From contig MAGU01000086.1 in assembly GCA_001717025.1 (NCBI GenBank), positions 1 through 38,611 of the forward strand: DNA of 38,611 bases, written 5' to 3'. Both the position numbers and the translations under genes were made by a program. Shown here piece by piece: positions 8,119-31,405 of the stretch. Numbering within the stretch: the stretch's first letter is position 1; every line of letters begins with the position of its first letter. This DNA comes from Candidatus Methanomethylicus oleisabuli. GTDB taxonomy: Archaea > Thermoproteota > Methanomethylicia > Methanomethylicales > Methanomethylicaceae. The notes beneath the pieces were generated by a model that ran no database searches, was not told the DNA's origin, and saw nothing but the letters and a program-made list of their open reading frames with translations.

Positions 8119-8228
8119 GCCGAGGTGGCTGAGCGGTTAAGGCGCCGGCCTTGAGTTCCGGCGGTCCCGGGCAGGCAAGCCGGTTCCCTTTTGGGGGAGC
8201 AAGGGTTCGAATCCCTTCCTCGGCGCCA
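8119..8228 (+). tRNA. tRNA-Ser(UGA) with a 22-nt intron, CCA encoded
   Basis: The acceptor stem GCCGAGG/CCTCGGC is perfect, the D-loop (GCTGAGCGGTTAAGGC) and the T-arm (AAGGG-TTCGAAT-CCCTT) are canonical, and CCA is encoded. The sequence is too long unless an intron at the standard 37/38 position (8156-8177) is removed. This leaves anticodon stem CCGGC/GCCGG and loop CTTGAGA with anticodon TGA (8152-8154). The long variable arm and discriminator base G73 agree with serine and exclude leucine. The intron itself pairs with exon sequence (CCGGC versus TTCCGG) in the manner of a bulge-helix-bulge splice site. Confidence 0.9.
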
Positions 8229-23513: not shown

Positions 23514-23616
23514 GGCTCCAGACCTCCTGATACGACTTGTGCCTCTGGGATATTAACCACTTCGCTTGCCGGCGGCGACGGCGGCGGACCGGCTCAGGCA
23601 GGCGGGTTCGGACAAG

Positions 23617-23624
23617 TTTTAATA
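23617..23624 (+). promoter_or_regulatory. TATA box of the methyltransferase-corrinoid operon
   Basis: TTTTAATA, about 40 bases before the ATG at 23663, predicts a start near 23645 and a short leader containing GAAGGTG as ribosome-binding site. Confidence 0.5.
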
Positions 23625-23662
23625 ATTCGTCCATTCATTACAGAGGTACTGAAGGTGTTGAT

Positions 23663-24688
23663 ATGGGTGAAATGACACCGCGCAAACGTGCCCTTCTTTG
23701 TGTAACAGGCAACAAGCGCAAGGCTGACAGGATTAGCTGCTTGGATACCCTGACGACGTGTACCGTGGACCAGATGAACGCCGTCAAGGCGCCGTTCCCG
23801 GAGGCAAACAGGGATCCAGAGCTCGCGTTCAGGCTTGCCGCAGCTGCTTGGGAAGTAGTTGGGCTTGAAGGATTCAAAATGCCGTTCGACCTCTGCGTAG
23901 AGGCGGAGGCGCTTGGCTGTAAAATCAACTGGGGAAGGATCGACAGGCATCCCAGCGTCGAGACGCATGTCTTCAACGACCTGAAGGACCTGAAGATCCC
24001 AGAGGACATCATGGACCGCGGGAGGTTCCCGCTGAAGCATGATGTCGAGCTGAGGCTAATGAAGGAGTACGGCGACTACCTCCCTGTGGTGAACCAGGTG
24101 ACCGGCCCCTTCACGATCGCGGGGCACGTCTTCGGGATCGAGAGGTTCTGCATCTGGACTAAGAAGAGGCCGCTCGAGGAGGTAAAGGAGGCGCTCATGA
24201 CCATCTCCGAGATGAACATAGCGGACTGCAAGAAGGCGCTTAAGAGCGGGTCGGAGATAGTCTGCATCGCGGACCCGTCGGCTACCTCGGACATCCTCTC
24301 TCCAGTGTTCTTCAGGGACGTCATGGTGCCAGTCTACAGGAACATGGCCACCAAGATCGGCGCCCCAATAGTGCTGCACATATGCGGCAACACAACCGCT
24401 TACCTGCCTTATCTGCCCGACACCGGCGTCGACGCGTTCTCGGTGGACGCGCAGGTGGACATAGGCTTTGCAAAGGCGGTCGTAGGCAACAAGATAGCCA
24501 TAGTCGGAGGCGTGCCGACCATCACCGCGCTCCTATTCGGGACCCCACAGAAGGTCAGGGAGGCGGCCATCGATGCTATAAAGAAAGGCGTCGATGTCCT
24601 GATGCCGTCGTGCGGAATACCGCCAAGGGCACCGCTCGAGAACTTCAAGGCACTGGTAGAGGTTGCCAGATGCATGGTTTACCAATAG
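23663..24688 (+). CDS. MtaA/MtbA-type methylcobamide:CoM methyltransferase
   Basis: Uroporphyrinogen-decarboxylase-fold methyltransferase of 341 residues. Enzymes of this family move a methyl group from a methyl-corrinoid protein to a thiol such as coenzyme M. The zinc site is complete: His239-x-Cys241 (LHICGNT) and Cys317 (MPSCGIPPRAPLENF). The sequence resembles MtaA/MtbA more than HemE. The partner corrinoid protein follows nine bases later. Without mcr or a substrate-specific methyltransferase in view, the acceptor (CoM, tetrahydrofolate or methanopterin) cannot be fixed. ATG chosen by the GAAGGTG site; a longer frame from 23537 is Arg-rich and not conserved-looking. Confidence 0.85.
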   Translation: MGEMTPRKRALLCVTGNKRKADRISCLDTLTTCTVDQMNAVKAPFPEANRDPELAFRLAAAAWEVVGLEGFKMPFDLCVEAEALGCKINWGRIDRHPSVETHVFNDLKDLKIPEDIMDRGRFPLKHDVELRLMKEYGDYLPVVNQVTGPFTIAGHVFGIERFCIWTKKRPLEEVKEALMTISEMNIADCKKALKSGSEIVCIADPSATSDILSPVFFRDVMVPVYRNMATKIGAPIVLHICGNTTAYLPYLPDTGVDAFSVDAQVDIGFAKAVVGNKIAIVGGVPTITALLFGTPQKVREAAIDAIKKGVDVLMPSCGIPPRAPLENFKALVEVARCMVYQ

Positions 24689-24697
24689 GTGATTGAA

Positions 24698-25369
24698 ATG
24701 GCAACAAAAGAAGAGATTGTTAACGGATTCATAAAAGCCATAGTTGACGGCGACGAAGCTGCATCGGTGATGTGGGCCAAACAAGGCATAGATGCAAAAG
24801 TTGATGCCTACGAGCTGGTGACGAAGCACGGCGGTGATGCCATGAGCATAGTGAACTCCAAGTATGAGAAGAAGGAGTTCTTCGTGCCGGAGGTCCTGTG
24901 CTCGGCGAATGCGCTGAACGCGGCTGTCGATGTGCTTGCGCCTTATATGAAGGCGGACAAGGCGAGCGAGCCGGCGACGGTCATACTCGGCGTGGTCGAG
25001 GGCGACATACACGACATCGGCAAGAACCTGGTGAAGATCATGCTAAGCGCAGCTGGCTTCAGGGTTGTTGACCTCGGGAAGGACGTCCCGCTGATGCAGT
25101 TCGTGGATAAGACGAAGGAGCTCAAGGCAGACGTTGTCGGCATGTCGGCGCTGATGAGCACGACGATGCCTTCCATGAAGAAGGTGATACAGCTCCTGCA
25201 GGAGGCGGGCATCCGGGACAAGGTTAAGGTGATCGTCGGCGGCGGCCCGGTTACGAAGGAGTGGGCGCTATCGATCGGTGCCGACGACAGGCCCCACGAC
25301 GCCTCGTCTGCGGTGGGCGCCACCAAGGAGCTCGTTGCCAAGCTGAAGGCAGAGCGGGGAGCCTGGTAA
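24698..25369 (+). CDS. Corrinoid methyl-carrier protein (MtbC/MttC type)
   Basis: Carries a methyl group on bound cobamide between methyltransferases. It has 223 residues: a helical cap domain (about 1-90) and a Rossmann B12-binding domain with the base-off signature GDIHDIGKN (His105 as lower cobalt ligand), SALMSTTMPSMKKVI (Ser-x-Leu) and VIVGGGPVTKEWALSIGAD. ATG 24698 preferred; a GTG at 24689 directly abuts the methyltransferase stop. Forms a two-gene operon ending in a hairpin plus T-run. Confidence 0.92.
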   Translation: MATKEEIVNGFIKAIVDGDEAASVMWAKQGIDAKVDAYELVTKHGGDAMSIVNSKYEKKEFFVPEVLCSANALNAAVDVLAPYMKADKASEPATVILGVVEGDIHDIGKNLVKIMLSAAGFRVVDLGKDVPLMQFVDKTKELKADVVGMSALMSTTMPSMKKVIQLLQEAGIRDKVKVIVGGGPVTKEWALSIGADDRPHDASSAVGATKELVAKLKAERGAW

Positions 25370-27557: not shown

Positions 27558-27818
27558 CTAAACTACGCCTGCTTCCCTAATGGCATTCTTCATGGTCTGT
27601 TTTGACGGGCATACGCCGATGATCCTTACGTCTTTGTCTATGACGATGGCAGGGCTGACCTTTAGGCCGTACTCCTTCGCCTTGTCCGTAGGGCCCTTGA
27701 AGACTTCGATCTCGACCTTGTCGCCGTATTCTTTCTTGATTTGGTCCATCAGCCTCAGCACCATCCTCCCGCCGGAACACGGCGGCAGAGATGTGAAGAC
27801 CTCAATTTTCAGTGCCAT
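27558..27818 (-). CDS. Thioredoxin-fold protein, single Cys (arsenic-type cluster gene 6)
   Basis: An 86-residue thioredoxin-like protein: strand KIEVFTSLPP, then CSGG where a CxxC is normal, so only the first Cys remains; later VSPAIVIDKD carries the cis-Pro and GVCPS a second, distant Cys. A single-Cys active site suggests glutathionylation-type, binding or partner-thiol chemistry instead of free disulfide exchange. ATG 27818; it begins two bases after the preceding gene ends. Last gene of the run 30444-27558. Confidence 0.7.
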   Translation of the reverse strand: MALKIEVFTSLPPCSGGRMVLRLMDQIKKEYGDKVEIEVFKGPTDKAKEYGLKVSPAIVIDKDVRIIGVCPSKQTMKNAIREAGVV

Positions 27819-27819
27819 T

Positions 27820-28080
27820 TTACTCAACCCCCAATTCCAAGAAGCAGCCTGTAAGCGTCTCCATGTCAGGGCAGACGCCCATCAGCATTATCCGCCCTTC
27901 CTCGAAGACCGCTGCGGGAACCATCGTCAGCCCGTATTTCTCAAACTCGGGGCACGGTCCCACGTGCTTTATCACCTGGGCTTTTTTTGCATATTTTTTT
28001 GCGATCTCGTCAGCGGTTCTCAGCAGGTCCACGCAGCCAGCACAGGGCGGCTCCGCGACGAAGAATTCCACTTTAATCAT
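27820..28080 (-). CDS. Thioredoxin-fold protein with CAGC (arsenic-type cluster gene 5)
   Basis: An 86-residue thioredoxin-like protein with active site PPCAGC after strand IKVEFFVAE, extra Cys in GPCPEFEKYG, GVCPDMET and LTGC, and cis-Pro in LTMVPAAVF. The five Cys could include an arsenic- or metal-binding set. ATG 28080. Follows gene 4 with an 18-base gap. Confidence 0.75.
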   Translation of the reverse strand: MIKVEFFVAEPPCAGCVDLLRTADEIAKKYAKKAQVIKHVGPCPEFEKYGLTMVPAAVFEEGRIMLMGVCPDMETLTGCFLELGVE

Positions 28081-28098
28081 GTTCACCACCATTACAAA

Positions 28099-28359
28099 TC
28101 ATTTAAGCTCTTCTCGGAGGATCTTCTTTACGTCTTCTTTTGACGGCACCCTGCCCTTGACGACGACTTTCTCGTTAATCACGACCGACGGGGTCAGCAT
28201 TATGCCATACTTGTCTGCCTCGCCTGATAAGGCGGAGAGATGAACCACCTGGGCATCGAGGCCCATTTCCTTTACAGCCTCATTGAAAGCCCTCTCTACG
28301 TTCTTGCATTTTGCGCAGGGGGGCGATCCTCCAAATACTATAATTTTTTTTGTTGCCAT
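28099..28359 (-). CDS. Thioredoxin-fold protein with CAKC (arsenic-type cluster gene 4)
   Basis: An 86-residue thioredoxin-like protein with active site SPPCAKC, then VERAFNEAVKEMG, and cis-Pro in IMLTPSVVINEK. ATG 28359. The three consecutive thioredoxin-fold genes differ clearly from each other in active site, so this is not a recent tandem duplication. A supply of reducing thiols for As(V)/As(III) or organoarsenical chemistry fits the context. Confidence 0.78.
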   Translation of the reverse strand: MATKKIIVFGGSPPCAKCKNVERAFNEAVKEMGLDAQVVHLSALSGEADKYGIMLTPSVVINEKVVVKGRVPSKEDVKKILREELK

Positions 28360-28404
28360 GTCCAGATTCCCCATTTTCATATTATGCCCAATTTTATTTT
28401 AGAT

Positions 28405-29481
28405 TTACCTAAGCAGCGTTCCGAATGCCAGCGACGCCGCAGTGGCCAGCGCTATCACTAGGACAAAGTACGTTCCCGCCTTCTTGCCGCCTATGGTCCG
28501 CCATATCACGATCATGCTCGGGAAGCTGAGCGTAGGCCCCGTGAGGAGCATGGCCAGGGCAGGCCCCGATGCCATGATGCCGGCGGAGTACCCGAAGAGG
28601 TTCCCGACAATCGGCACCTCAAGCAACGTCGGCATGTAAAGAAAAGCGCCGGCGATCGAAGCTATGAGGCATGATAAGACGCTGTTTGTTCCGAACAGCA
28701 GCTTCAGGATCTCGACCGGGATCAAGGCGCCTATGACTCCGCTCGCAAAGCTGCCCAAGAGGAGTATGGGGAATATCTTCTTGAACAGGAACCAAGTCTC
28801 GTTGCCGAACTCTCGGATCTCTTCACGGGCGAATCGGCTGAAGAGGACATAAGCAGCCAGGATTGCCAGTCCGATCATGATGACTATCCTTATCAGAATG
28901 TCGATGTATGAGGCGGGCCCGATCAAGACCATGGCTGTCAGGAGCGCGATTAATACCAGCCTTATCGGGCTGGACGCGCCTGCCGTGCTGCCCTCCTGCA
29001 TTTTTGGTGTTTGCTTGGTTTTTATATCGCTCTTGAATATGCTGCCCATTATGAGGCCTACGAGTATGGCGGATGATACTGCAACTACCGCCCGCGCAAT
29101 TCCGATGTCATAGCCGAGAATGTTTGCAGTAATGGTGATCGCCATGATGCTTATTGCCGGCCCGGAGTAGAGGAACGTGATTGCAGGGCCCAGACCGGCG
29201 CCCCTCCGGCATATGCCCGTGAAGAGGGGCAGTATCGTGCAGCTGCAGACGGCCAATACGATGCCCGCAACGGCTGCCACGACGTATGATATTGATTTCT
29301 TCGCCTCTGCGCCCAGATACTTCATCACTGCCTCCTTTTTCAGCAGGGATGCGATTGCCCCTGCCAGAAAGAAAGCAGGGACTATCGAGAAGAGCACATG
29401 CGCAGATACATAATCTAGAAACGCGCTCCATCCGGCCAGCAGGGCGGAGACCAGCAGATCGTAGGGCATCGGAGACATCAT
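28405..29481 (-). CDS. arsP: ArsP/UPF0718 (DUF318) permease
   Basis: Membrane permease of 358 residues with about eight to nine hydrophobic segments. The conserved pair CSCTILPLFTGICRRGAGLGPAITFLYSGPAIS (first half) and AGAFLYMPTLLEVPIVGNLFGYSAGIMASGPALAMLLTGPTLS (second half) define UPF0718. Members called ArsP export trivalent methylarsenicals such as MAs(III) and aromatic arsenicals. The neighbouring arsM supports that role, but UPF0718 permeases of other function exist. The gene overlaps arsR by 4 bases. Confidence 0.82.
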   Translation of the reverse strand: MMSPMPYDLLVSALLAGWSAFLDYVSAHVLFSIVPAFFLAGAIASLLKKEAVMKYLGAEAKKSISYVVAAVAGIVLAVCSCTILPLFTGICRRGAGLGPAITFLYSGPAISIMAITITANILGYDIGIARAVVAVSSAILVGLIMGSIFKSDIKTKQTPKMQEGSTAGASSPIRLVLIALLTAMVLIGPASYIDILIRIVIMIGLAILAAYVLFSRFAREEIREFGNETWFLFKKIFPILLLGSFASGVIGALIPVEILKLLFGTNSVLSCLIASIAGAFLYMPTLLEVPIVGNLFGYSAGIMASGPALAMLLTGPTLSFPSMIVIWRTIGGKKAGTYFVLVIALATAASLAFGTLLR

Positions 29482-29825
29482 CCCTCAATGGCCTTTCTCA
29501 GGGCATCGACCGTCTCAGAGGCTGAGGCAAGGTCCTTCAGGTTCAGAGAGTCTGCGGCCTTCAAGAGCAGGAATATTTCCGGGTTCTTGATGCGGTAGAA
29601 GGTCTTCTTCCCGTCCTCCCGCTTGTCGAGGATGCCGGCCCTGAAGAGGATGCCAAGGTTCTTCGAGGTTGTGGACTGCGCCTTCCCTATGTAGGGGATT
29701 ATCTCGCAGACGCACCTCTCGCCGTCCTTTAGGTATTCTATTATTTCGAGGCGCGTGCTGTCAGACAGCGCCTTGAAGACCCTTTCCCTGAACCTTAGCA
29801 GGCCCCTGCTTATTTTGTCGCCCAT
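29478..29825 (-). CDS. arsR: ArsR-family metalloregulatory repressor
   Basis: A 115-residue winged-helix repressor. The metal-sensing alpha3-type site CVCEI (ERCVCEIIPYIG) is present, and TTSKNLGILFRAGILDKREDGKKTFYRI is the recognition helix and wing. It should bind As(III)/Sb(III) and release operator DNA. It sits between the corrinoid gene (one base gap) and the permease (4-base overlap). The obvious candidate operator is the divergent promoter region at 30459-30494. Confidence 0.9.
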   Translation of the reverse strand: MGDKISRGLLRFRERVFKALSDSTRLEIIEYLKDGERCVCEIIPYIGKAQSTTSKNLGILFRAGILDKREDGKKTFYRIKNPEIFLLLKAADSLNLKDLASASETVDALRKAIEG

Positions 29826-29826
29826 G

Positions 29827-30444
29827 TCAATCGCCCCGATCCTTCGGGCGGCCCACTATCCGGTCCAGCTCTTCAAGGTCGCTCGTTACGACATCCGCAC
29901 CGCAGTCCTTCGCCGCGGGACCGCCGGCAATCGTCATCACGTCTTTGCGCTTCTCCTTTACATGCTTTATGAAGTCCTTTGATGGGCCCTGGATGCCCGA
30001 CTCGATGCAGGATAGAACGACGAAGCGGAGCGCCGGGTCTGAAAGGGCATCGCCCGCGTCCTCAGGCCTAAGGCCCCTCAGCGTAGAGTATACCTTCAGC
30101 CCCTTCGACCGGAGCATCGTCGCGATAATGGCCTTCATGAGGACGTGGCCTTCCCCCAGAGCGGTGGCCACCAGGACAGAATACGGAGGGTTGGGGGCGG
30201 CCAGCCTTTCGTCGAGGATCTTCAGCACTTTCAGGGTCGCATTGAAGCAGCCAAGCCACGCCTTCAGCGACTCTTTCTCGTCCCGTTCGTACCATATGCA
30301 AAAATCAGACCATGCATTCAGGACGCCGTCCCTGATTATGTCATAAGGGCGCGTGCCGGACTCGACTGCGCCCAGCGTTGCGCCGGCGGCATCCGCTGCA
30401 TTTCCGGACAGTATTGCGTCAGATATTTTTTCTATGGCAGACAT
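29827..30444 (-). CDS. Divergent corrinoid (B12)-binding protein in the arsenic-type cluster
   Basis: A 205-residue protein with the two-domain layout of methyl-carrier corrinoid proteins: helical cap (EKISDAILSGNAADAAGATLGAVESGTRPYDIIRDGV) and a Rossmann-type B12 domain. The usual DxHxxG lower-ligand motif is ExHxxM here (ATALGEGHVLMKAII, His100), while the Ser of the S-x-L element (VVLSCIES, Ser145) and the GG (TIAGGPAAKDCGAD, 174-175) are kept. It may bind cobamide with altered ligation, bind another tetrapyrrole, or have lost the cofactor. First gene of a six-gene run with ArsR, ArsP and three thioredoxins, facing arsM. ATG 30444 chosen over a start at 30459. Confidence 0.75.
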   Translation of the reverse strand: MSAIEKISDAILSGNAADAAGATLGAVESGTRPYDIIRDGVLNAWSDFCIWYERDEKESLKAWLGCFNATLKVLKILDERLAAPNPPYSVLVATALGEGHVLMKAIIATMLRSKGLKVYSTLRGLRPEDAGDALSDPALRFVVLSCIESGIQGPSKDFIKHVKEKRKDVMTIAGGPAAKDCGADVVTSDLEELDRIVGRPKDRGD

Positions 30445-30458
30445 AGGATACCAGCACA

Positions 30459-30494
30459 ATTATATATCGAGATATTGGAATATGTCTATAAGTA
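30459..30494. promoter_or_regulatory. Divergent promoter and likely ArsR operator between the corrinoid gene and arsM
   Basis: Plus-strand TATA ATTATATATC (30459-30468) serves arsM; minus-strand TATA CTTATAGAC (about 30486-30494) serves the corrinoid-arsR-arsP run. Between them lies a perfect palindrome ATATT-GG-AATAT (30472-30483) within a longer A/T-rich symmetric tract, well placed for one ArsR dimer to block both directions. Confidence 0.6.
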
Positions 30495-30509
30495 TTTCGG
30501 TGGAAGCCT

Positions 30510-30581
30510 ATGATTTACTTGAAAAAAGTTAATGACCGCCTTTATTCCATAGAGCAGGTGATGAAGAGGGGGCAGGTATGA
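30510..30581 (+). CDS. 23-residue upstream reading frame coupled to arsM
   Basis: ATG 30510, preceded by CGGTGGAAG as ribosome-binding site, encodes MIYLKKVNDRLYSIEQVMKR plus three residues and stops at TGA 30579-30581, overlapping the arsM ATG as ATGA. It lies about 20 bases after the predicted transcription start. It could be a leader peptide that couples translation to arsM, or a small product. No family recognised. Confidence 0.45.
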   Translation: MIYLKKVNDRLYSIEQVMKRGQV

Positions 30582-31405
30582 GGGAGGACAGCGTGCGGAA
30601 GGCAGTCCGTAAGAGCTATGGAAGCATAGCCAAAGGAAAACAATCAGGCTGTTGCTCAAGCTCATGCTGCAATACGATCACTCCGGAAGAGGTCAGCAAG
30701 AAGATAGGATACTCCGACGAGGACGTCAACTCGATACCAGAAGGCGCGAATCTGGGCCTCGGATGCGGAAATCCGGTCGCCCTGGCGTCCCTTAAAGAGG
30801 GCGAGGTGGTGCTGGACCTGGGTTCCGGCGCGGGCTTCGATTCCTTCCTGGCAGCCAGGAGAGTCGGCCCGAAGGGCAGGGTGATAGGCGTCGATATGAC
30901 GCCGGAGATGCTCGAAAGGGCAAGGAAGAACGCCAAGAAGGGCGGATTTGAGAATGTTGAGTTCAGGCTCGGGGAGATCGAAAACTTGCCGGTTGCAGAC
31001 AATTCGATAGATGTGGTCATATCCAATTGCGTCATCAACCTCTCGCCAGAGAAGGGGAGGGTGTTCCGAGAAGCGTATAGGGTTCTGCGCCCCGGCGGCA
31101 GGATCATGGTATCGGACATCGTCCTGCTGGCGCCTCTGCCGGCATTCCTCAAGTCCACGGCGTCGCTTGTTGCCTGCGTCGGCGGGGCGGCGCTGAAGAA
31201 GGAGTATCTGAAGGCCATGGAAGGGGCAGGGTTCGCATGCATCAGAGAACTCGAGGAGTCGGTATATTCAATTGATTCGCTCATTGACCTTCCTGAAGTG
31301 AAAGAGGCCATCGGGGCAGGCAAGGTATCCATTGATCAAGCAAAAGGATATGCAAAGAATGTCGTCAGCATGAAGGTCATGGCAATCAAGCAGCCTAGTG
31401 ATTAA
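30578..31405 (+). CDS. arsM: Arsenite S-adenosylmethionine methyltransferase ArsM
   Basis: Methylates As(III) using AdoMet, giving mono-, di- and trimethyl arsenicals. It has 275 residues. The conserved arrangement GYSDEDVNSIPEGANLGLGCGNPVALA, VVLDLGSGAGFDSFLAA (AdoMet site about 79-92), VIGVDMTPEMLERAR and VISNCVINLSPEKGRVFREA is all present. Arsenic-binding Cys candidates are Cys63, Cys151 and Cys200 (VACVGGA); an extra N-terminal cluster CCSSSCC (25-31) adds four Cys. Start ATG overlaps the stop of the 23-codon frame. Divergent from the corrinoid-arsR-arsP run. Confidence 0.93.
   Translation: MREDSVRKAVRKSYGSIAKGKQSGCCSSSCCNTITPEEVSKKIGYSDEDVNSIPEGANLGLGCGNPVALASLKEGEVVLDLGSGAGFDSFLAARRVGPKGRVIGVDMTPEMLERARKNAKKGGFENVEFRLGEIENLPVADNSIDVVISNCVINLSPEKGRVFREAYRVLRPGGRIMVSDIVLLAPLPAFLKSTASLVACVGGAALKKEYLKAMEGAGFACIRELEESVYSIDSLIDLPEVKEAIGAGKVSIDQAKGYAKNVVSMKVMAIKQPSD

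Follow-up and report, generated by a model that had tools for sequence, protein, structure and literature searches.

The subject of this study is a seven-gene arsenic (ars) cluster at positions 27558–31405 of a 38,611-nucleotide stretch of DNA from Candidatus Methanomethylicus oleisabuli (hereafter the window; contig C83 of genome G000, which is 1.37 Mb, 95 % complete and contains mcrA), in which an operon of known kind is combined with a protein from a family-restricted branch of the B12 fold that is apparently unstudied. This protein, here termed Cor (29827–30444, minus strand; PF02310, 35.3 bits against a cut-off of 32.1), is a divergent stand-alone protein of 205 amino acids with an ATG start, and its gene is the first of a minus-strand operon that faces, across a shared promoter, the gene for the S-adenosylmethionine (SAM)-dependent arsenite methyltransferase ArsM (30578–31405, plus strand; 275 amino acids). 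Cor is followed on the minus strand by an ArsR/SmtB metalloregulator of 115 amino acids (29478–29825; NF033788, 76.4 bits, cut-off 55), an ArsP_1 permease of 358 amino acids (28405–29481; PF03773, 207.7 bits, cut-off 32.3) and three small thioredoxin-fold proteins, namely the MTH895/ArsE-family thioredoxin-like protein TrxC with a CAKC site (28099–28380; TIGR00412, 68 bits, cut-off 62), TrxB with CAGC (27820–28092; PF13192, 31.4 bits, cut-off 24.8) and TrxA with CSGG (27558–27818, with the ATG start read at 27818; PF13192, 26.8 bits over 27558–27812, cut-off 24.8). Cor and ArsR are separated by 1 base, ArsR and the permease overlap by 4 bases, and gaps of 24, 6 and 1 bases precede TrxC, TrxB and TrxA, respectively. 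An original prediction had placed ArsM opposite a tightly spaced run of just these genes; profile scores and substitution ratios confirm the genes and their coordinates, and the spacing is indeed tight, with no gap wider than 24 bases and no overlap longer than 4.

ArsM scored 345.9 bits against NF008823 (PRK11873; curated cut-off 263), retains the SAM-type domain and contains the sites GLGCGNP, SNCVINLSP and VACVGGA, which we take to be the three-cysteine pattern of ArsM. ArsR is of the CVC type, with the motif lying within ERCVCEI and presumably forming the As(III) site. The permease belongs to the family expected of an ArsP-type exporter and may export trivalent organoarsenicals, although PF03773 includes other permeases too; its score was under the cut-off for the SO_0444 Cu/Zn exporter (90.6 against 300). 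The CxxC motif is kept by TrxB and TrxC only, the second active-site cysteine having been lost from TrxA; the latter keeps another cysteine in GVCPS, comparable with GVCPD in TrxB.

When the window genome was compared with G002, from the same genus, ratios of non-synonymous to synonymous substitution (dN/dS) of 0.06–0.29 were obtained for nine genes (the seven of the cluster together with two genes close by, those for MtaA and a canonical corrinoid protein, considered below), and the cluster genes are therefore real and under selection. The highest value, 0.29, was that of Cor, the comparison being limited to residues 24–205 (182 codons) by a run of N that interrupts the G002 gene. We rejected the idea that Cor is broken in G002, as its two pieces are due to this stretch of N (a scaffold gap) and give no evidence of decay. 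The divergent promoter region (30445–30577) does contain the palindrome that had been predicted (30465–30490), a candidate ArsR operator with arms pairing at 10 of 12 positions around a 2-base spacer, but it is imperfect and was matched or bettered in 20 of 200 dinucleotide shuffles; being by itself within chance, it was dropped as strong evidence. The palindrome block is mostly identical in G002, which would fit an operator.

Operons of the arsRM, ArsR–ArsP–ArsM and ArsR–Acr3–ArsM types likewise bring ArsM, ArsR and an exporter together (as ArsR, Acr3 and ArsM are in G003, of the same genus), but the present cluster adds to these a B12-fold protein and the three small thioredoxin-fold proteins. 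The export module itself (ArsR, ArsP_1 and thioredoxins) is ordinary, common and exchangeable. Permease matches, some of them fragments, occur in 17 of 22 Methanomethyliaceae genomes, including G000 and G002, outside which the full-length matches are 36–44 % identical. All 18 ArsP_1 matches in the phylum were read with flanks of about 1.5 kb: at the 16 loci besides those of G000 and G002 a TrxC homologue was present at 13, ArsR at eight and Acr3 at two, and Cor and ArsM were found at none of the 16. Modules of ArsR, ArsP_1 and thioredoxins (MTH895/ArsE family) from G032 and G026, two genomes of the same class, contain the permease, ArsR and homologues of all three thioredoxins, but lack Cor and ArsM within these flanks; in both genomes the TrxA and TrxB homologues lie side by side. 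The SAO/Tso selenoprotein systems, as described in the accessible part of a review (PMC13188914), resemble the cluster in that its permease is like SaoE and its thioredoxins like TsoX, TsoC and SaoT, with low scores. However, all scores were under the cut-offs (SaoE, 75.8 of 325; SaoT, 17.8 of 65 for TrxA and 14.3 of 65 for TrxC) and no Sao-type partners were recognized among the cluster proteins scanned, and an organometal system of the SAO/Tso type was rejected.

The Cor family and its ligand site

With Cor as the query, 19 genes scoring at least 97 bits were identified in 17 of the 22 Methanomethyliaceae genomes, the two G002 pieces being taken as one gene. In 300 genomes drawn evenly from the phylum, a Cor profile gave at least 239 bits for members of the family (74 for the G002 fragment) and at most 73 for the next matches, which are, as far as inspected, canonical corrinoid proteins. 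A scan of genome contigs for the peptide pattern EGHxLM[RK][DE][IV] returned 13 loci in 12 assemblies, all of them titled Methanomethyliaceae, Methanosuratincola, Methanomethylicales or Methanomethylicota. The Cor family is confined to a single archaeal family, the Methanomethyliaceae, in the genomes searched. Carriage by plasmids or viruses was dropped, as no match was found among plasmid and viral contigs.

An AlphaFold2 model of Cor (mean predicted local distance difference test score 92.7) has the two-domain arrangement of a helical cap and a Rossmann fold, and its structural matches include a photocobilin (Z 21.6), the methyl carrier MtmC (3ezx; Z 19.5, root-mean-square deviation 3.3 over 200 residues), MetH (1bmt; Z 18.6), AerR (7te2; Z 17.3), CarH (5c8d; Z 16.2) and the AppA SCHIC domain (4heh; Z 14.9). 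As carriers and sensors have similar Z values, the fold is of the B12-binding type and suits either function. The MtmC/MtbC/MtaC carriers (TIGR02370, NF041607) share with Cor this cap and fold, the axial His, an SxL-like Ser and the GG pair, but Cor lies far under the curated cut-offs for them (TIGR02370, 31.9 of 215.3 bits; MtbC, 36.4 of 350) and has E-x-H-x-x-M in place of their D-x-H-x-x-G motif, which is present in the alignments in four local canonical corrinoid proteins and five relatives from the PDB. The HgcA model was absent from the NCBIfam matches of Cor up to E 1, a result judged from that list alone. The ExHxxM motif, with its axial His, is invariant in all 19 copies, and the family seems to represent a branch of the B12 fold that has not been studied.

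Residues E98, H100, M103, S145, G174, G175, F48, Y52 and W63 are invariant in the family. That Met replaces the motif Gly throughout, and that C146 is found in 18 of the 19 copies, might suggest that Cor has left corrinoids altogether and that its pocket (E98, H100, M103 and C146) accommodates a different soft ligand or an arsenical, the protein then serving as a chaperone or buffer for ArsM. There is a parallel in SCHIC domains, which have the same fold and have switched to haem (accessible part of PMC9144470). However, the one copy with Arg in place of C146 is the ars-linked copy of G002, the axial His, Ser145 and the GG pair of the B12 site are retained in 19 of 19, and the pocket is as well conserved in the 16 copies without recognized ars genes as in the ars-linked ones, and so is not specific to arsenic. 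This conservation argues for one ligand shared by all copies, in the simplest case a cobamide, and against an arsenical, and we consider a changed ligand improbable.

Linkage of Cor with ars genes

Cor lies within ars clusters at three of its 19 loci: in the window (G000 C83), in the same gene order in G002 (C81), and in G005 (C23), from a related genus, where ArsR is divergent from a Cor–Acr3–ArsM–flavin reductase run (Acr3: TIGR00832, 437 bits, cut-off 282.8). ArsR adjoins Cor at all three. The three ars-linked Cors form one clade (support 83/97), as do the three Cor-linked ArsMs (support 90/92) in a tree of 13 of the 14 ArsM matches, a split copy from G006 C4 being omitted. The pump beside them differs, ArsP_1 with three thioredoxins in G000 and G002 and Acr3 in G005, so that Cor seems to travel with ArsM. 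Identity between G000 and G005 is 51 % for Cor and 65 % for ArsM. A search of the 16-kb G005 locus with 19 window genes (E 1e-5) recovered just ArsM, Cor and ArsR, so that the linkage is more than general synteny. At the G005 cluster a weak TrxC-like open reading frame (L022:4153–4518; 16 bits, E 8e-4) was observed 0.65 kb past the flavin reductase gene.

Cor adjoins three of the 14 ArsM matches in Methanomethyliaceae genomes, and across the phylum a B12-fold protein was near ArsM in three of the 30 loci read (of 71 matches, some loci being cut by contig ends), these being again G000, G002 and G005. G000 and G005 each have one ars-linked and one non-ars copy of Cor, from which, together with the tree, we infer that a family-specific B12-fold protein was duplicated to give rise to Cor. 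The arsenic link of Cor is real, though narrow in that it extends to three genomes of two genera and possibly has one origin.

Recognized ars genes are absent beside the other 16 Cor genes, whose neighbourhoods were annotated in part. Queries with the ArsM, ArsR, ArsP and thioredoxin proteins of the window gave no match at these loci except one weak SAM methyltransferase (L023:5267–6031; ArsM, 38 of 263 bits), and on the contigs concerned no listed Acr3 was closer than about 20 kb. The second Cor copy of G005 has this weak methyltransferase gene about 1.9 kb upstream; the gene scored 45 of 180 for CpaM, the 'corrinoid protein-associated methyltransferase'. QueC, DJ-1, MFS and other genes occur near many of the non-ars copies. 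In L025 a peptidase gene and Cor overlap by 20 bases (L025:8486–10220), and the same pairing is seen at 10 other loci in the family; near such a pair in genus g5 lies a carboxymuconolactone-decarboxylase/AhpD-like gene (L026:4512–4832) scoring 25.4 of 120 against an arsenosugar-associated peroxidase-like model.

These distributions bear on the possibility that Cor has no role in arsenic metabolism, a duplicate having been inserted by chance into an ars cluster and retained for its original function. The 16 of 19 family members without recognized ars genes alongside are in keeping with this, as are the dN/dS of Cor, the highest of the nine, and the situation in G003, where ArsR, Acr3 and ArsM stand at a contig end just past the start of arsR and no Cor was found on that contig or elsewhere in the genome, although absences are weak in G003, which is 78 % complete, and in G001, at 59 %. 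On the other hand, the dN/dS of Cor is well under 1, Cor leads the operon with a single base between it and ArsR, the trees of Cor and ArsM are in agreement, and the link persists across two genera although gene order and pump have changed. We regard a chance association as the least probable of the explanations considered. The prediction that the corrinoid protein is tied to arsenic is supported, in two genera, with different pumps and with concordant trees, for three of the 19 copies; the condition set there for its refutation, that the homologues lie mostly in unrelated neighbourhoods, holds in part, as the remaining 16 have no recognized ars genes alongside.

Possible roles of Cor

A classical methyl carrier is expected to have a methyltransferase gene next to it. 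No gene for a URO-D, MTTB or MtaB protein, the three partner families covered, lies within 2 kb of any of the 19 Cor genes, whereas 15 of the 35 canonical corrinoid genes compared from these 22 genomes have one so close (Fisher P 0.0004, with the reservation that genes of related genomes are not independent). The 35 comprise all family-genome matches reaching E 1e-4 with the Cor query, the canonical protein of the window excluded, and some of the 2-kb Cor flanks are cut by contig ends (e.g. G000 C2, G006 C20, G010 C24, G011 C39, G018 C34 and G019 C140). Within 8 kb two Cor genes, those of G000 and G002, have a partner, in each case an MtaA homologue.

It is nevertheless conceivable that Cor is a dedicated arsenic methyl carrier, passing methyl groups from methylarsenicals, either produced by ArsM or taken up, towards coenzyme M (CoM) or from methyl-Co(III) to trivalent arsenic. 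The full two-domain corrinoid fold with its axial His, the presence of ArsM at all three ars loci, the RACo-type activase in 22 of 22 family genomes and the MtaA-type methyltransferase 5.2 kb (G000) or 5.0 kb (G002) from Cor would all suit such a function. So would the reports, in the accessible parts of the respective sources, that a methylotrophic methanogen isolate removes the methyl groups of dimethylarsenite, no arsenic-specific enzyme being named (PMC10579292), and that arsenic is methylated in a side reaction of MtaA with methylcobalamin (review PMC13262295, which cites Thomas et al. 2011). Against it stand the absence of the three partner families within 2 kb, the departure from the DxHxxG motif and the low curated carrier scores; moreover, the nearby MtaA adjoins a canonical corrinoid protein of its own, the 16-kb G005 locus yielded no MtaA–corrinoid pair, and ArsM retains both its SAM-type domain and its score. 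Methyl carriage is thus not favoured; we consider it unlikely, if foremost among the alternatives, and distinctly improbable in the form in which Cor is loaded by methylarsenicals and unloads to CoM, or donates to arsenic in step with ArsM. If true, it would give some H2-dependent methylotrophic methanogens a genetically encoded route between methylarsenic and methane and an unusual His-on ExHxxM corrinoid site. The original prediction had the corrinoid protein feed or remove methyl groups on arsenic, which, without an expected partner methyltransferase within 2 kb at the 19 loci and with an altered lower-ligand motif, is not supported as put; its alternative, sensing of methyl or B12 status, is at least as well supported.

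Our current working hypothesis is that Cor responds to a cobamide bound via His100 and acts as an accessory protein or co-regulator of ArsM and/or ArsR; we assign this a probability of about 0.4. The contrast in neighbouring methyltransferase genes makes a cobamide-binding accessory protein or sensor likelier than a classical methyl shuttle, and an accessory or regulatory role is ranked first because the pocket is common to all copies, Glu is allowed at the corresponding position of CarH and AerR is free-standing. Specifically, the CarH motif allows D or E before the axial His and G or P at its last position (PMC9304148, accessible part), and in AerR a stand-alone protein that binds B12 serves as co-regulator of the transcription factor CrtJ (PMC9144470, accessible part). 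Like AerR, Cor is a free-standing B12 fold; a regulator, ArsR, is beside it at the three ars loci but, among the neighbours scanned, none was recognized at the other 16. Likeness to the AerR, CarH and photocobilin group extends to the fold (Z 16–22) and to aromatic residues in the helical cap, whereas Cor has no DNA-binding domain, resides in a methanogen and is paired with ArsR as regulatory partner by a guess of ours.

On this hypothesis the arsenic detoxification cluster would consist of two parts, an export module open to exchange, in which ArsR is joined by ArsP_1 and small thioredoxins here and by Acr3 in the related genus, and a linked ArsM–Cor pair. Cor would have retained cobamide binding through His100 and would contact ArsM or ArsR in a regulatory role, in the manner of stand-alone AerR, and so could tie the methylation and efflux of arsenic to the condition of the methyl-corrinoid pool that a methylotrophic methanogen lives on. 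The Methanomethyliaceae are, we assume, methylotrophic.

Several observations weigh against a co-regulatory role. MtmC and MetH match the Cor model as well as AerR and CarH do, and the Wx9EH signature of CarH is missing from Cor, W51 occurring in 12 of 19 copies and K61 in 18 of 19, with position 62 variable; with this cap motif absent, a photoreceptor function was dropped. Met103 in place of Gly or Pro, unlike either the carrier or the CarH class, may disturb the nucleotide-tail pocket. Among the neighbours scanned, none directly beside the 16 non-ars copies was recognized as a regulator gene, and 11 of these 16 are directly preceded by an M29-type peptidase gene. The linkage in G000, G002 and G005 may be one inherited event, and Cor is probably not obligatory, as none was found with the ArsR–Acr3–ArsM set of G003 or elsewhere in that genome (78 % complete). 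Finally, the ArsR tree, which was mostly without resolution and was set aside as a test of whether Cor belongs with ArsR, did not group G005 with G000 and G002, so that the adjacency of Cor and ArsR may be secondary. A regulatory or accessory role nevertheless heads our ordering, followed by methyl carriage, a changed ligand and no arsenic role.

The occurrence of a corrinoid protein gene near ars genes is not without precedent, contrary to what had been supposed: in some putative mercury methylators hgcA is reported to lie beside or near acr3, arsC, arsR and arsM (PMC7438021, accessible part). These hgcAB loci resemble the cluster in this respect, but HgcA belongs to another corrinoid family. 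No ars operon with a corrinoid protein of the Cor kind was found in the literature searched, which took in the accessible part of PMC7438021 and had most subscription papers outside its scope. Cor, a small protein predicted to be soluble and encoded beside arsM, is a concrete candidate either for methylarsenic demethylation chemistry or for a switch tying arsenic handling to corrinoid status, and B12 chemistry or sensing may enter the arsenic handling of some methanogens.

The MtaA–corrinoid block near the cluster

The nearby MtaA/CmuA-type methylcobamide:CoM methyltransferase gene (23537–24688, plus strand; TIGR01463, 278.1 bits, cut-off 235.4) is followed directly by that of the canonical corrinoid protein (24689–25369, plus strand; PF02310, 101.2 bits), and with an NAD kinase and a PIN protein they form a block common to G000, G002 and G003. 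The pair was dropped as a component of the ars cluster, as in G003 the block adjoins a different permease, with no Cor on the 6.9-kb contig, and the block probably lies outside the cluster. The G003 permease is another ArsP_1 protein (L133:1–527; 38 % identical over 159 amino acids), and the region near the block is possibly a hotspot for metal-exporter exchange.

The reductive activase (RACo C-terminal domain) present throughout the family is absent from the window contig C83; G000 as a whole has two such genes along with mcrA and gave no match to MtaB or MTTB, so that it is not obvious which methyl substrate this methanogen uses. Elsewhere in the window, Rfam identified a tRNA at 8119–8225 (50.8 bits) that was not reported by ARAGORN, and its length of 107 bases suggests an intron-containing tRNA.

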